Shown here: positions 10,828 through 57,817 of the stretch, piece by piece
Layout: each line of letters opens with the position of its first letter
How positions within the stretch are numbered: the stretch's first letter is position 1
Source of the DNA: Capsulimonas corticalis
GTDB lineage: Bacteria; Armatimonadota; Armatimonadia; Armatimonadales; Capsulimonadaceae
Assembly: GCF_003574315.2 (NCBI RefSeq)
Contig: NZ_AP025739.1
Location: 7,192,001 to 7,256,000, forward strand
DNA length: 64,000 bases
Direction: 5' to 3'
Translations under genes and position numbers: made by a program
The notes under the pieces: model-generated
What the model was told of the DNA's origin: nothing
Database searches by the model: none
What the model saw: only the letters and a program-made list of their open reading frames with translations

Positions 10828-13800
10828 TTAATAGGCACCAGGCAAAGGCGTCGGATGAGAAAGAAATTTACAACAATCGTATGTGACTCCGCTAACAGTT
10901 TGGAAATCGCAACATGGCGATGGCGGTTTTGTCCACGGAAAAGCCGCTATACAACCTTGATGACAAGACTGATTTGAGCCAGCAACTTTTATGCCGGCAA
11001 CACAAGCCGTCCCTCGACCCTGGTTTGAAGAGCCAGCATCCTGAATAAGTTGGAAGGCTATTGCACAGGATGCATCTACCGCATGTGTTATCTCGCAACA
11101 AGCCATACAGTGAGTATATCCGTGGTTGCATGCATGCTGCGGGGTATGGACATACGCAAGATAAACACCAATTGAGACCTCCGCACAAATAAAGGGATCC
11201 GTCGCAATTGATATCGGAATGTTACCCGAAGGATCAAAATATTTAATTGGGTTATTGAAACTGTATTGATATAAGTTTAAAAGGTTTGTTCTCCCTCGTA
11301 GCGCCAGTGCAGAATATAGAGCTCCATCAAACCCAATCGGGTCCCTGCTGAACCAGCGCCCATGGTTGATCTCCACGTACATCCACCGGTCCCGCACGTA
11401 GTAGAACGCGTTCGAGCCGGGCCAGTAGTACCCGTACTTCCCCTTGTAGCGGTACATCAGCCGCGTGAAGTTCGTCGTCTGGGAGCCCCCCGCGATGTCC
11501 CCGAACGCATAGTAGTCGAACGTGTCCGTCACCGTGCCCGTCGCGTCAACCATCGCCCGCACGTCCCCGGACATGTCGTACACGTAGAACAGGCTGTCCA
11601 GGTTCTGGAGGTCGCGCAGCGACGTCAGCCCGCCCCACTCGCCCGGGTAGTCCGTGAAGTGCAGGATGGAATTGCCGCTGAGGTCCGTCTGCCCCAGCAC
11701 GTTCTCCCCGTCCCACACGAACCGCCCGTTGCCCCCCGACTGCCGCTTCCCGTCCGCCGAGTACGCGTTCGCCCCGCCGTTGAACGAGACGATCCGATTC
11801 TCCGCGTCCCACAGGTACGTCGTCTGGACCCCGGTCCCCGCCTGCGGGATTACCCCGGTCAGGTTCCCGTTCCGGTCGTACGTGTTGGTCGTCCGCGCCT
11901 GGTTGGAGAACTGCGAGGCGGTCAGCTGGTTCGCCGCGTCGTAGCTGAACGTCGTCTGGAAGCCCAGCCGGGTCAGCGCCGCCCGGTTGCCGGCCCCGTC
12001 GTAGGCATAGGTGACGCTGCGGCTGTTCGCGCCGCCCTGCTCCAGGACCAGCTGGTTCGAGGCGTCGTAGCCGAACGTCGTGACGATGCCGCTGAGTTCC
12101 AGCATCATGAGCCGGTTGCCGGCCGCGTCGTAGGTCGCCGTGTAGGTCGCCACCGCCGTCCCGTCCGCCCGACGGCTGTCCGTCACCAGCTCCCGACCCG
12201 CCCCGTCGTAGAGGTGGCTGACGGTCATGCCGTTCGCGTACGTCTTGATCCGCTCCCGGTCCAGCGCGTCGTACGTGAAGGTCGTGCGCTCGGCGTAGGG
12301 GTTCCAGATCGAGGTGAGCCGGTTCTGCGCGTCGTAGGAGTAGGTGGTCAGCCTGCCGTCGTTGTCGAGCAGGAGCGATCGGTTGCCGGCGGGGTCGTAG
12401 GCGTAGGAGAGGGCCTTGCCGGCGCCGTTGACCTGGCGGGAGAGCCGGCCGGCGGCGTCGTAGGCGTAGGTGGTGGCGCCCGTGACGTCCTGCAGCGTCG
12501 TCTGCTGCCCGGCCCGGTCGTACGTGAAGGTGTTGAGCGTGCCGTCCGGGTAGACCCTTCCGACCTGCCGGTTCAGCACGTCGTAGGTATAGGTGGTGAC
12601 GATCCCGCGCGCGTCGGTGCGAAGGCTGGTATTGCCGACGGGGTCGTACTGGAAGGAGGTGAGTTGGCCAAGAGCGTCCTGCGTCGAGAGCACCGCGCCA
12701 CGCTTGTCGTAGAGGTTGGTCGTAGCGTGCCCGTTGGCATCCACCACCGCGAGACGCTGCCCCGCCGCGTCGTACACGAAGGTCGTGAAGTAACCACGCG
12801 CGTCCTGCTGAGCCAGCGTCCGGCCGGCCCCGTCGTAGGCGGTCGTGCTCAGGCGTCCGAGCGCGTCCTGGAATGCGACGGCTTCTCCCGCGCCGTCGTA
12901 CAGAGCGGTCACGCTCTGGCCCAACGGGTTTACCTGGGCGACGGCCCGGCTGGCGACGTCGTAGACGGTGGTCCAGAGCTGGCCGAGCGCGTCCTGCGTC
13001 GCAACGTTCCGGCTGGCGGCGTCGTAGAGCTGCGTCGTGCGATAGCCCAGCGCCGAGACGCCCGCCTGGAGGCGACTGTCCCGGTCGAAGACGTTTGTGG
13101 TCACATTCCCGCGCGCGTCCTGCATAGTCGTCCGACGGCCTGCCGCGTCGTAGCCGTAAGAGGTGCGTGCGCCGGTCGCGTCCACCGAAGCGATCATCCG
13201 GTTAGCAAGGTCATAGACCGTGGTGGCAGTACGGCCGAGTGGGTCGACAGCGGAAGTCCGGCGGCTGGCCGCGTCGTAGGCATTGGTCCAGCGGTTGCCC
13301 AGAGCATCGATCGAGGCAATGGGACGGCTGGCGGCGTCGTAGACGCTGGTCGTCAGCCGGCCCAGCGCGTCCTGGGATGCGACAGGGCGCTGAGATGCGT
13401 CGTAGAGAGTCGTTGAGCGGTAGCCCAGCGCGTCGATGCTAGCGAAGGGACGGCCGACGAGGTTGTAGACCGCCGTCGTGGCGCGTCCGATCGGGTCGAT
13501 GTGAGCGATGCGCTGTCCAGCAACGTCGTAAACGGTTGTACTTGTGTTCCCCAGCGGGTTCGTCAACGCAACCTGGCGACTGGCGGCGTCGTAGCCATAC
13601 GTCGTCATCCGTCCCAGCGAATCAATAGCCGACTGTTCGCGACCGTTGGCGTCGTACACCGTGGTGCTGCGGTTGCCCAGTGGATCGATGCGCGCCAGCG
13701 GACGACCCAGCAAATCGTACACCGTCGTGCTCACGGCGCCGATCGGATTGGTCGCCGTGACAGGCTTGTCCCACACGTTGTAGGTCCACGTCGTACGGTT

Positions 13801-25423: not shown

Positions 25424-25500
25424 CGTTCCTTAGGCGAGTATCAATGAAAGCATAAAGGCGGCGTCCGCCGCTGAAGCCCCAAACAAGAATGAGGTAGAGA

Positions 25501-27111
25501 ATGAAAAGAGCGGCCATTTACTTGCGGGTATCCACGTCGGAACAGCTGAACGGAACGAGCATCGACGGGCAGAAAGCAGCTTGCCTCGGCCTGGCGGCCT
25601 CCGAAGGGGCGCAGGTCGTCGGATGCTATTCCGAGGACGCCAGCGGCGCGCTGTACACCGCGCGCCCCGCGCTGATGGAGGCGCTGGCCTCCATCGAGCG
25701 CGGCGAGGCCGATGTCCTGATTGCATTTAAAATCGACAGGCTGGGCCGGAGCGCCCGGATCATCCGCGACGTCGTGGATCGCATCGTCGCCGCTGATGCG
25801 ACGGTTCTGACGACCGATTACAAGCTCGATAAGAGCGCGATGGGCACGCTGATGCTGAACATGCTCGGGAGCTTCGCCGAAATGGAGAAGGACGGCATTC
25901 TGGAACGCACGAAGGGAGGATCGCTCCGGCGCGCCCAGTCCGGCGTGCAGCCGCAGCGCTCCCGGGTCGCATTCGGCTACCACGTCGTGACAAACCCGGA
26001 TAAGCAGCGCGGACTGTACCCCGAATCAGCGCCGGGCACGTACGTACTGGACCCTCAGAAAGCGCAGGTTATGGGAGAAGCTTTCCGCATGTACGATGGC
26101 GGGGCCAGCCTGCGCTCCGTCGCAAAATGGCTGCAAGGAACCTGCTCGCCAAGCCGAGGGTCAGCCTGGTACGCATCGACCCTTCGCGCATTATTGTCCA
26201 ATCCGATCTTCAAGGGACAGGCCTCCTACGGCCGGCACAAAAAGATCACGAAGGAGAAGGGCAACACCACGATTTCACGGATGGTTCTTACGGGCAACGC
26301 CGTTATCATCCCCTGCCCCGCGATCGTGGATGCGGCGCTCTGGGACCGCGTTCAAATCCGGCTGTCCGAAGCGCGCCAGACGTTTTCCGGCAACCCGGCC
26401 CGCAAGCATCTGCTCAGCGGCCTGCTGCGATGCCCGCTGTGCGCGCGATCCATGAAGGGAACGCGCCGCACGATCAAAGAGACGACTTACCACTATTATT
26501 CCTGTCCCCACTCCCGCCCCTCGCGCAGCATCAGTGGAACCGTATGCAACCCGAAGCTCCTGGACGCCCACGTGGCGGAGTCGCTAATCCTGCACGGGAT
26601 TGGCGACATCGTCTCTCGTCCGGAAGTCCTGCGGGAGGCGCTGGACGCCTATCGGCGCATGGAGATGGTCGTCTTTGACCCAGCGTCCATCGCATCAGCG
26701 GAAGCCGCCCTGCGCGCACTCGACGCAAGAGAAACAGCAACGGTCACCGCGCAGGTTCAAGGCATCCAGGCTGGAGCCAACCCTGCAGTGTATGGGTCGG
26801 CGTTCGCAAAAATCGCGGAAGAACGCACGACCCTCACTAAACGCCTAAATGAGCTGAAAACCCAGCAAAAAAGCTTTGCTTCCGAAAGGCTGGACGATGC
26901 GACACTCATGACGGCGGCGCTCAGGGACGCAACGACGGCGCTTTCGAGCCCTTACCTGACGGACGGAGAGCGGCATGACCTATTGGCGCGCGTTGTGGAG
27001 AAGGTAATACCGGAAGAAGTGGAGGGAGAGACGGGATACCGCGTTTTTTTGCGCTCGGATGCGGAAACTGTTCATATAACTCAGCCGATGCGCCAGCCAG
27101 TCGCGCTATAG
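25501..27111 (+). CDS. Large serine recombinase (integrase)
   Basis: 536 residues. The resolvase-type catalytic domain (about 1-150) has YLRVSTSEQ with the likely nucleophile Ser11, then FKIDRLGRSARI and a long helix (GSFAEMEKDGILERTKGG). Next come the recombinase domain (about 170-270, RALLSNPIFKGQASYGRHKK), a zinc ribbon (LLRCPLCARSM, then YYSCPHSRP and a later Cys), and a coiled coil (about 370-470). Such enzymes integrate and excise phages or islands. The last codons (QPMRQPVAL and stop) lie on DNA that, antisense, encodes the aminotransferase TYSATGWRIG motif. The recombinase therefore ends inside the target gene, which marks the attachment junction. Its ATG is preceded by GAGG. Confidence 0.9.
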   Translation: MKRAAIYLRVSTSEQLNGTSIDGQKAACLGLAASEGAQVVGCYSEDASGALYTARPALMEALASIERGEADVLIAFKIDRLGRSARIIRDVVDRIVAADATVLTTDYKLDKSAMGTLMLNMLGSFAEMEKDGILERTKGGSLRRAQSGVQPQRSRVAFGYHVVTNPDKQRGLYPESAPGTYVLDPQKAQVMGEAFRMYDGGASLRSVAKWLQGTCSPSRGSAWYASTLRALLSNPIFKGQASYGRHKKITKEKGNTTISRMVLTGNAVIIPCPAIVDAALWDRVQIRLSEARQTFSGNPARKHLLSGLLRCPLCARSMKGTRRTIKETTYHYYSCPHSRPSRSISGTVCNPKLLDAHVAESLILHGIGDIVSRPEVLREALDAYRRMEMVVFDPASIASAEAALRALDARETATVTAQVQGIQAGANPAVYGSAFAKIAEERTTLTKRLNELKTQQKSFASERLDDATLMTAALRDATTALSSPYLTDGERHDLLARVVEKVIPEEVEGETGYRVFLRSDAETVHITQPMRQPVAL

Positions 27112-54264: not shown

Positions 54265-55425
54265 ATGGCGGCAACGGACACGGGGACATTTTTGAAGGCG
54301 AGCAGCGCGCGGCGTGAGCTGTTCGACGGGATTCAGACGGTGGGCAAGGCGGTGGCGACGCGGTCGTCGCTGCCGATTTTGACGCATGTGCGCATCACGG
54401 CCAAGGACGGCAAGGTATCGCTGATGGCGACCGACCTGGAGATGTGGATGGAGCACACCCTGCCCCACGCCGTCGTCACCGGCGAGGGCGCAGCCACAGC
54501 CCCGGCGCGCAACTTCACGGAACTGCTCGGCGCGATGCCCGACTCCGATGTCACCTTCACCGTGGAAGATGAAACGAATACCCTGCATCTGCGCTGCAAC
54601 AAGGCGAACTACAAGCTGCTGGGCTTGGCCGCCGACGAGTTCCCGCTGATGCCGCAGGTCAAAGAAGAGTCCCGCTTCGTGATCGACCGCACCCTGCTGC
54701 GCGACGCCATTAAGCAGACCCTCTTCGCGACCTCCTCCGATGAAACCCGCGCGATCCTCACAGGCGTCCTGGTCATCTTCCAGGGCGATTCGCTCAAGCT
54801 CGTCGCCACCGACACGCATCGTCTCGCCGTCCGCGACTGCGCCGTGCAGGAAGGCCGCGGCAGCGCCAGCGCCATCGTGCCCGCGCGGGCCATGAGCGAA
54901 CTCCAGCGCATCGTCGGCAACGAAGAAGGCGAAGTGACCGTCACGCTGTCGTCCAACCAGATCCAGTTCCAGATCGAGAACGAAAAGAGCGGCTCCACCA
55001 CCCTGATCTCCCGCCTGATCGACGGCCAGTTCCCCAACTTTGAACGTGTCATTCCGACTCAGGCCACCAAAACCCTCACCATCCAGCGCGAACCCCTCGT
55101 CGCCGCCGTCCGCCGCGCCGCCATCGTCGCCCGCGAATCCGCCAACCGCATCGTCCTACGCACCACCGAAGACGGCGACCGCCTGACCATCACCGCCGAA
55201 AGCGGCAACATCGGCAACGCCTACGAAGAAGTGGACATGGCCCGCGAAGGCGAAGACGGCCCCGTCGAGATCGCGTTCAACGCCAAATACCTCAGCGATG
55301 TGCTGAACGTGCTGGACACCGAAGGATTGAACATCGAACTGACCGAGCCGCTGCGGCCGGGCGTGATCCGGCCGACGGAGGACGCGGACTACCTCTGCGT
55401 GCTGATGCCGATGCAGGTGGTGTAG
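54265..55425 (+). CDS. dnaN: DNA polymerase III beta subunit (sliding clamp)
   Basis: 386 residues with the three clamp domains. GIQTVGKAVATRSSLPILTH opens domain 1, TLLRDAIKQTLFATSSDETR domain 2 and EPLVAAVRRAAIVARESANR domain 3; the protein ends YLCVLMPMQVV. It encircles DNA and tethers the replicative polymerase. GGAG precedes the ATG by eight bases. It is not next to dnaA here. The last 91 codons and the stop are repeated at 57052-57327 with identical protein sequence, so this 3' end may have been supplied by the insert that follows. Confidence 0.95.
   Translation: MAATDTGTFLKASSARRELFDGIQTVGKAVATRSSLPILTHVRITAKDGKVSLMATDLEMWMEHTLPHAVVTGEGAATAPARNFTELLGAMPDSDVTFTVEDETNTLHLRCNKANYKLLGLAADEFPLMPQVKEESRFVIDRTLLRDAIKQTLFATSSDETRAILTGVLVIFQGDSLKLVATDTHRLAVRDCAVQEGRGSASAIVPARAMSELQRIVGNEEGEVTVTLSSNQIQFQIENEKSGSTTLISRLIDGQFPNFERVIPTQATKTLTIQREPLVAAVRRAAIVARESANRIVLRTTEDGDRLTITAESGNIGNAYEEVDMAREGEDGPVEIAFNAKYLSDVLNVLDTEGLNIELTEPLRPGVIRPTEDADYLCVLMPMQVV
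55150..55425 (+). repeat. dnaN 3' direct repeat, copy 1
   Basis: 276 bp forming the end of the intact dnaN. Pairs with 57052-57327; I count 13 synonymous codon differences plus a changed stop (TAG against TGA). Confidence 0.9.
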
Positions 55426-55473
55426 AACTTTAACGGCCTTTATAAAATGTCCATGATACGAGTGGAGAAATAA

Positions 55474-56529
55474 GTGCTTAATAGCCTCTTGCTAAGAAAT
55501 TTCACCGTATTTCCAACGGCAGATCTCTTCTTTGGGGAAAATCTAAATGTATTTGTTGGAGAAAATGGTGTCGGAAAAACGCATATTCTTAAAGCGGCCT
55601 ACAGCGTCATCGCAGTTAGCAATGAACTACGGACAAGGGGCCATTCTAACACGCCCACGAAAGCACAACTACAAGGGCGCCTAGCTGACAAGCTAGTGGG
55701 AGTATTTCGTGCAGAAGCGCTTGGCAGGCTTGCAAGCAGACGTCTTGGAAGAGAACGATGTGATATCCGCCTTCAGTTTGACGAAGATAAATATGATATT
55801 GCTTTCAGTTTTGCGACAAATAGTAAATCTGAGGTAGCTATTGAAACAGTTCCCACAAGCTGGATAGAAGCTTCGGCTGCATATTTTCCAACACGTGAGC
55901 TAATGACTATATTCCCGAATTTTGTCTCAGTATATGAAGGGCGTTACCTAGAATTTGAAGAAACGTGGCGCGACACTTGTATCCTCTTAGGGGCGCCCCC
56001 ACGTCGAGGGCCAAGAGAGGGCAAAATTCGTGATTTACTTAACCCTTTGGAAGAGGCAATGGGAGGCTCTGTAGATCTCGACAAGAATGGCCGATTTTAT
56101 CTTCGTCCTAATGGAAGTCAATCACGCATTGAAATGCCACTTGTTGCCGAAGGGCATCGCAAGCTCGCTATGCTCTGTCAGTTAATTGCTGTAGGTGCAT
56201 TCAATAGTGGTGGATATTTATTCTGGGACGAGCCGGAAGCTAATCTTAATCCACGACTTATCCGAGCAATCGCTAAGAGCATTGTCGAATTGAGCACAAG
56301 GGGCATACAGGTCTTTATTACAACTCACAGCCTGTTCCTATTACGAGAATTGGATATATTACATGCAACTAACTACGGGCGAAAGCTGCAAATAGAGTTC
56401 TTTGGGTTAAATAGAACGAATGATGGCGTCTCAGTACTTCAATCAGATTCTTTGGATGAAATCGGCGACATTGCAGCATTAGATGAAGAGCTGCAACAAT
56501 CAGACCGATATCTGGAGCAAATATCTTAA
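55474..56529 (+). CDS. AAA ATPase of an inserted two-gene module
   Basis: 351 residues. [20 protein letters not shown] leads into the Walker [10 protein letters not shown] (Gly29 to Thr36). The Walker B is [13 protein letters not shown] with Asp252-Glu253, followed by [18 protein letters not shown] with the switch His. This is the RecF/OLD-like ABC-ATPase plan seen in defence proteins such as those of PARIS, Septu and Gabija, but there is no TOPRIM domain. The start is GTG at 55474 with GGAG six bases upstream. It is AT-rich beside dnaN and lies one base from the nuclease gene. It probably senses a signal and controls that partner; this is inference. Confidence 0.85.
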
Positions 56530-56530
56530 G

Positions 56531-57037
56531 ATGCCAGCGATTACAATTGATGGCCTTGTATTCACTTTTCCCCAAGGCTGGATCGTTGAAAAGTACGATG
56601 ATTGGGCATTTCACCAAAACAGGTTTCAAAGCATTCCGCCAGGAAGGAAAGCTGTAGATCTGATTGCCATTAGCCCTAATAAAACATTGTATTTACTTGA
56701 AGTAAAGGATTACCGTCATTATTCCAGAAGTAAATCCATAGAACTGACGGATGAGATCACGATCAAGGTTGTAGATACGTTAGCGGCTCTCATTCCTGCA
56801 AAGATTCATGCCAACAACAGCAATGAGAAAGATTGTGCGCGTAAAGCTACACAAGCAAATGAAATCCATATTGTATTTCATTTAGAGCAACCGGCAGTTC
56901 ACTCTAAATTATATCCACAGGTGACAAACACGGCAAACCTTCAGCAGCGGCTGAGACAAATGCTACGTGCAGTTGATCCGCATCTAAAGGTTGTCTCCAA
57001 GAATACGATGCAGAGCTTGCCATGGACAGTGACATAG
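56531..57037 (+). CDS. PD-(D/E)XK-like nuclease partner of the AAA ATPase
   Basis: 168 residues from the ATG at 56531; a longer in-phase frame overlaps the ATPase gene. The nuclease motif is AVDLIAISPN with Asp43 and TLYLLEVKDYRHY with Glu57 and Lys59, an Asp-x13-Glu-x-Lys pattern. The C-terminal half is helical (IKVVDTLAALIPAKIHA, LQQRLRQMLRAVDP). I know no named family. It would cut nucleic acid, probably only when licensed by the ATPase encoded one base upstream. AT-rich, as its partner. It ends 14 bases before the repeated dnaN segment. Confidence 0.7.
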   Translation: MPAITIDGLVFTFPQGWIVEKYDDWAFHQNRFQSIPPGRKAVDLIAISPNKTLYLLEVKDYRHYSRSKSIELTDEITIKVVDTLAALIPAKIHANNSNEKDCARKATQANEIHIVFHLEQPAVHSKLYPQVTNTANLQQRLRQMLRAVDPHLKVVSKNTMQSLPWTVT

Positions 57038-57051
57038 TTGAATACTCATCT

Positions 57052-57327
57052 ATTGTCCTGCGCACCACCGAAGACGGCGACCGCCTGACCATCACCGCCG
57101 AAAGCGGCAACATCGGCAACGCCTACGAAGAAGTAGACATGGCCCGCGAAGGCGAAGACGGCCCCGTCGAGATCGCGTTCAACGCCAAATACCTCAGCGA
57201 TGTGCTGAACGTGCTGGACACCGAAGGATTGAACATCGAACTGACCGAGCCGCTGCGGCCCGGGGTGATCCGGCCAACGGAGGATGCCGATTACCTGTGC
57301 GTGCTGATGCCGATGCAAGTAGTTTGA
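57052..57327 (+). pseudogene. Second copy of the dnaN 3' end
   Basis: The last 91 codons of dnaN plus stop, encoding exactly the same residues (IVLRTTEDGD to CVLMPMQVV) as the intact gene. Only codon-third-position changes separate them, ten of the 13 in the final 60 bases. There is no natural start for a separate protein. It marks where the dnaN gene ended before the ATPase/nuclease module came in, or is the copy that came with it. Confidence 0.9.
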
Positions 57328-57334
57328 CAAGTTG

Positions 57335-57725
57335 ATTGCGGCCCATCTGAGGAAACACCCTTGGATGGAATACGATGTCCGCGCCGTCCTGGCGCGAAAC
57401 AACTTTGCGAACCATCATGCCGAGAACTCGCCGCTTCTCGGCTCCCGAAATGTTCGGGCCCGTCATGCCCCGATCCGCGTCCTCAAACGCCTGGTTCACT
57501 AACATCTCGCCGGCATACGTGCGCCGAGTTAGACGATGCTTTCCGGGTTCCCCGCAGCGCCGTGCTGAGGGGGCTCCTCCACTCTTCCAGGTCCTTGCGC
57601 TGGGCGACAAGATTTCTGGAGGCCGCAGCAGAGGCGTCGGCAGACGCTCCAGCCCTGATGCCGACGATCTGGGTCTGGATTGCCGCCGACGCCTCTGCCT
57701 TCAATAGCAGTAGGTCCTTCTCCAT
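57335..57725 (-). pseudogene. Serine recombinase C-terminal remnant
   Basis: Minus-strand codons read KAEASAAIQTQIVGIRAGAS and LVAQRKDLEEW, like DARETATVTAQVQGIQAGAN and the following coiled coil of the intact recombinase at 25501. After a frameshift they continue ISGAEKRRVLGMMVRKVV and ADIVFHPRVFPQ, matching LTDGERHDLLARVVEKVI and YRVFL of the intact enzyme. Catalytic, recombinase and zinc parts are missing. The remnant reads into the dnaN copy without a stop, just as the intact recombinase reads into the aminotransferase. Confidence 0.6.
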
Positions 57726-57817
57726 CCCCGTGATCTCCTTACGAACACTAATGTAGAATCAGTCCCATGGTATACTGGGAATGACGCCGCCATGAGAGAA
57801 AAGAGATTGATTGTAAT

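Follow-up and report, generated by a model that had tools for sequence, protein, structure and literature searches.

A HEC-02 ATPase–nuclease pair between two dnaN 3′ ends in Capsulimonas corticalis and its probable arrival by one-sided homologous recombination

The window, by which we mean the whole 64,000-nucleotide stretch of the Capsulimonas corticalis genome analysed here, contains two genes, one base apart, that are flanked on one side by a full-length dnaN gene and on the other by a duplicate of its final 91 codons. A first-pass annotation had described this arrangement, and our comparison of the sequences confirms it. The features of the locus are as follows.

54265 to 55425, plus strand: dnaN, full length, the target gene (92% nucleotide identity to a same-genus dnaN)
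55150 to 55425, plus strand: first copy (copy 1) of the duplicated 3′ end of dnaN, the last 91 codons and the stop, within the intact gene
55474 to 56529, plus strand: HEC-02 ATPase, 351 amino acids, AAA_21 or RecF-SMC type (PADLOC PDLC04146, Pfam AAA_21)
56531 to 57037, plus strand: HEC-02 nuclease-like protein, 168 amino acids (PADLOC PDLC04145, alignment of relatives)
57052 to 57327, plus strand: second copy (copy 2) of this 3′ end (sequence comparison with copy 1)
57294 to 57749, minus strand: frameshifted C-terminal remnant of a large serine recombinase; the end of the remnant lies antisense to the tail of dnaN (tblastn)

The ATPase gene begins with GTG, 48 nt beyond the dnaN stop, and the small-protein gene begins with ATG and stops 14 nt before copy 2. 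Their GC contents of 44% and 42%, against 64% for dnaN and 59% for the window, support the foreign composition that had been proposed for the pair.

Both proteins match models of HEC-02 in PADLOC over their full lengths: the ATPase matches PDLC04146 (E 3.7e-147; residues 1-349 of 351 on model positions 1-342 of 344) and the small protein matches PDLC04145 (E 6.6e-57; residues 3-167 on model positions 4-168 of 170). PADLOC labels these two best models B and A, and its other HEC-02 models use the letters inversely. By these matches the pair is a full-length member of a catalogued candidate anti-phage system, and the earlier suggestion that it may be undescribed is not borne out. Pfam places the ATPase only in the general AAA_21/AAA_15/SMC_N class (AAA_21 at 1.2e-19). 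HEC stands for Hma-embedded candidate, and several of these candidates, HEC-06 included, were antiviral in assays (PMC12988326); the literature that we searched contained no experiments on HEC-02. The window pair resembles HEC-02 in having an ATPase and an adjacent nuclease-type partner that match the models from end to end, but it differs from the system as catalogued in standing alone behind a housekeeping gene, not within another defence operon, and in being bounded by a long target repeat.

Examination of the residues supports the reading of the pair as a RecF/OLD-like ATPase with a partner that carries a PD-(D/E)XK-type nuclease motif. The ATPase has a Walker A motif, GENGVGKT, at residues 29-36 as well as Asp252-Glu253, and the small protein has an Asp43-x13-Glu57-x-Lys59 motif. 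In alignments of eight to ten relatives, the invariant positions of the ATPase include K35, the W-D252-E253-P-E run, H285 and a C-terminal Q...R pair; those of the nuclease (eight proteins) include D43, E57, K59, D60, Y61 and R62. The D...(D/E)-x-K motif of the PD-(D/E)XK superfamily is also found in more distant pairs. No Pfam model reaches the cut-off for the nuclease family. The best lead for the window protein is NERD, the nuclease-related domain (E 0.006, below the cut-off), and one or two of the eight members show a weak likeness to NERD, HSDR_N_2 or pPIWI_RE_REase (E 0.006 to 0.07), all of which we take to belong to the PD-(D/E)XK superfamily. The structure predicted for the nuclease (pLDDT 73) has a non-nuclease as its best PDB match, at E 0.02; SfsA, VRR_NUC and HincII are among its weak fold-search matches, none of them significant, and a sequence search of the PDB with this protein gave nothing useful. 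The small protein was also checked for a match to a non-nuclease family, and no such curated family was reached.

The ATPase belongs to the same broad ABC/RecF/OLD class as PARIS AriA (1.5e-21), PD-T4-4_A (9e-20), Gabija GajA (4e-12) and Septu PtuA (2e-11), and in all four systems, as here, the ATPase adjoins a small effector-type partner. In contrast to these systems, the partner in the window is a D-x13-E-x-K protein that matches none of the models for their partners, and the ATPase scores against their models far less strongly than against HEC-02. The PADLOC models of the TOPRIM partner AriB, the HNH partner PtuB and the helicase GajB do not match the small protein, and the 351-residue ATPase is too short for a fused TOPRIM domain of the kind found in GajA. 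ATPases of this kind that stand beside a nuclease (PARIS, Septu, Gabija and the retron-type PtuA) detect infection and then free or activate that nuclease. By analogy, the pair would most likely serve as a defence of the PARIS or Septu style, a nuclease under ATPase control: the ATPase would sense an infection signal or bound DNA and control the nuclease, and the nuclease would destroy DNA, or another nucleic acid, of the phage or of the cell.

The distribution of the pair fits the sporadic, mobile defence-type module that had been proposed. Matches to the nuclease model occur in 7 of 291 genomes of the phylum, probably Armatimonadota, and in the window's family only in its own genome; matches to the ATPase model at E below 1e-50 occur in 19 genomes of the phylum. 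The pair is absent from the other same-genus and same-family genomes examined. A search of genomes for the pair, with its position recorded as had been proposed, found relatives that follow rpmA or an esterase gene, adjoin hsdM, are carried on plasmids or lie in BREX operons, and none of the other HEC-02 loci examined lies near dnaN; we therefore rejected the idea that the pair is a conserved dnaN neighbour. Further relatives occur in Victivallales and its phylum. The plasmid relatives include one in Pseudanabaena with 59% ATPase identity, one in Paracoccus that adjoins a toxin-antitoxin pair, an integrase and a type ISP enzyme, and one in Sulfuricystis in which the ATPase stands beside an N-6 methylase and no nuclease was recognised. 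More distant pairs lie inside BREX operons; in Methylomonas the neighbours are brxC and pglX, one on each side, in Polaromonas the pair follows pglX, and a distant pair in Sphingobium lies in an operon with the same layout. A collection of viral sequences held one HEC-02 locus, which lacks flanking repeats, and the phage records searched held none.

Defence genes are found near HEC-02 at several plasmid loci, at the BREX loci and at the hsdM locus. With a limited probe set, no restriction-modification or BREX genes were found near the window pair or most loci of the phylum, and on this basis a role as a general guard of restriction-modification systems was rejected; the loci that fit such a role are the hsdM locus (G067), two loci with DUF499-type genes (G489 and G538) and the plasmid loci with BREX, type ISP or methylase genes. 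Two HEC-02 pairs (L095:6012-7949 and L178) stand beside large genes that resemble a DUF1156-type methylase and a DUF499-type ATPase, and the pair's ATPase in the first of these is extended at its N terminus by a further domain, possibly nuclease-like in its own right. Another pair (L002:4200-6048), with an added N-terminal part in its ATPase frame, lies within an apparent sialic-acid-type surface sugar cluster.

The two dnaN 3′ ends are informative in their own right. The repeat is the second match that a same-genus dnaN finds in this genome. Over 272 nt the copies are 95.6% identical, and all 91 of 91 residues are the same. When 464 kb of the genome, including the window, were compared with themselves, no other spaced direct repeat was both 80 bp or longer and 90% identical or more, which argues against chance; because the genome is a single 7.65-Mb contig, a simple assembly join is also an unlikely source. 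The 15 nucleotide differences, which fall in 14 codons with the stop included (TAG in one copy, TGA in the other), are all synonymous, an outcome with P of about 7e-9 under random change without selection. Moreover, the final 76 nt hold 12 of the 15 (Fisher's test, P=2e-5, with the cut point set after inspection), and both copies have private changes relative to the same-genus dnaN. Because the changes are all synonymous and clustered, we rejected decay of a spare copy as their sole source; together with the private changes in both copies, the synonymous-only pattern suggests that both tails most likely come from working dnaN genes. The target-gene repair that had been read from the locus is also supported.

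The explanation that we consider probable is that the HEC-02 pair, an operon of an ATPase and a PD-(D/E)XK-type nuclease with a putative role in ATPase-controlled nuclease defence, is foreign and was inserted behind dnaN by one-sided homologous recombination. The place of the pair in HEC-02, the repeat with its mosaic of synonymous differences, the scattered distribution and the return of long repeats at other loci are observed; the recombination route, the nuclease activity, the defence role and the trigger are inferred. The incoming DNA would have carried the pair behind the 3′ end of a dnaN gene. One end would have recombined homologously with the resident dnaN at a point about 70 nt from the stop, and the other would have been joined by an illegitimate event to a site in the same gene some 200 bp further upstream. 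The product would be a full dnaN with a donor-derived last ~70 nt, then the pair, then the displaced resident 3′ end. The predicted pattern is a shared resident stretch of about 200 nt, followed by the donor tail in copy 1 and the resident tail in copy 2, and the clustering of synonymous differences in the last 76 nt fits an exchange of this kind with a donor dnaN. The process, homology-facilitated illegitimate recombination, is on record and has an experimental basis (PMC3240628). A donor dnaN bearing the tail of copy 1 was not found among the relatives compared, and the mosaic could also stem from gene conversion acting on an earlier duplication. If one-sided recombination is correct, the dnaN copies are a readable record, in the form of a synonymous mosaic, of the event that brought the pair. 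As a defence system the pair is a known candidate and ordinary in kind; what is unusual is the clean record of its arrival.

By comparing left and right flanks across HEC-02 loci, we found long flanking repeats at three of them: 272 bp in the window, 135 bp at G024 and 116 bp at G067. In the phylum, the closest relatives (ATPases at least 40% identical) account for four separate insertions that are intact, and three of these have the repeats; the target gene is whole at all three repeat loci. At G024 the pair begins 20 bp past the stop of an intact esterase-like gene (read by eye), and 135 bp around the end of this gene recur, 96.3% identical, 33 bp past the nuclease stop; the mismatches fall within the first half of this repeat, and some change amino acids. 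At G067 the pair, together with an XRE-type regulator frame (identified by eye), lies between a 116-bp 5′ fragment of hsdM and the intact hsdM, which was identified by Pfam HsdM_N and N6_Mtase; the copies are 95.7% identical, their differences are spread out and include a stop codon, and the fragment is broken. No repeat was found at the one common insertion site of G075 and G077, about 70 bp behind rpmA (within the limits of split contigs), at G082, where the locus is degraded, or at G497, and long flanking repeats were not seen in the more distant members. The weak repeats at G066 (36 bp, 89%) and G065 (70 bp, 83%) were not counted. In a comparison aimed at a site without the insertion, members of the window's family each had a single dnaN end, yet with other genes behind it.

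Restriction-modification genes offer a parallel. The original account of their insertion with long target duplication is reportedly that of Nobusato in 2000, cited in two later papers (PMC3031569, PMC4978471). Here, too, defence genes are bounded by long direct target repeats with no transposase in the unit; the window differs in holding an ATPase–nuclease pair without a methylase, and in that its copies have diverged by about 4%, with all differences at dnaN synonymous. The recurrence of long repeats at unrelated sites extends a pattern hitherto tied to restriction-modification genes, and it is a lead on how small defence operons may move without a transposase or integrase and leave essential genes such as dnaN unharmed.

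This parallel bears on an alternative that we regard as possible but rather unlikely, in which the pair enters at a long staggered double-strand break, fill-in duplicates 100-300 bp of target and the copies diverge later. It accommodates repeats of 116, 135 and 272 bp in different target genes, and the amino-acid changes and stop codon at G024 and G067 are what decay of a spare copy is expected to leave; long and variable target duplications are also on record for restriction-modification systems (PMC3031569). However, dnaN has no non-synonymous differences and 12 of its 15 changes lie in the last 76 nt, so that a staggered cut would need later gene conversion or recombination in addition. One mechanism need not have made all three repeats: the mosaic is clear at dnaN only, and the patterns at G024 and G067 differ from it. 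We think it improbable that HEC-02 is self-moving, with its own ATPase and nuclease cutting or capturing target DNA and so causing the duplications at dnaN, the esterase-like gene and hsdM; if true, one machine would serve both defence and its own spread.

The recombinase remnant behind copy 2 gives information on the order of events. Its tblastn matches are to the recombinases G006:C200 (3e-19), G004:C327 (8e-13) and that of G002 (6e-9). In G002 an intact large serine recombinase (L043:3499-5379) has its last codons antisense to the dnaN 3′ end, and in G004 a serine recombinase with two stops (L045:11508-13259) likewise ends in the dnaN tail. In G006 a related recombinase (L150, G006:C221) overlaps the 3′ end of msrB, and its upstream genes are the same as in G002. 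These positions suggest that this recombinase family settles at the 3′ ends of conserved genes. The remnant adjoins copy 2 rather than copy 1, in the way that dnaN adjoins the recombinases of G002 and G004, which indicates that the copy-2 junction is the older one; by this comparison HEC-02 would have come in between, after the junction of copy 2 with the chromosome existed. The same recombinases invite the reading that the dnaN 3′ end is an attachment site and the pair the cargo of a serine-recombinase element whose recombinase gene has since decayed. The overlaps with the dnaN and msrB ends, and the remnant in the same place in the window, speak for it, but the remnant is found beyond copy 2, not within the unit that the repeats enclose, none of the other HEC-02 loci tested has a relative of the recombinase nearby, and the usual attachment sites of serine recombinases are far shorter than 272 bp; we consider this reading doubtful. 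That copy 2 is instead a working third gene, encoding a free C-terminal clamp domain as, for example, bait or trigger for the pair, is very improbable: its frame (57022-57327, 101 amino acids) is open from an ATG within the nuclease gene and keeps the clamp's 91 residues despite the 14 differing codons, but by eye it has no clear ribosome-binding site, the clustered differences fit a mosaic origin better, and other HEC-02 loci have the ends of other genes or no repeat, with amino-acid changes in the copy at G024.

In other members of the family, behind dnaN lie a TIR gene in G005 (L046:3956-4579), an Mrr-type nuclease or restriction gene in G003 (L047:103-915) and an AT-rich gene for an HD/OB protein in G001 (L004:2240-3383). 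These genes look foreign and differ from one another, and the 3′ side of dnaN thus looks like a frequent landing place in the family, in a sample of seven genomes. Elsewhere in the window, a further large serine recombinase gene lies at 25471-27030, with a relative and similar downstream genes in the same-genus genome (G001:C585), and an imperfect tandem array with a period of 63 bp occupies 12758-13620.
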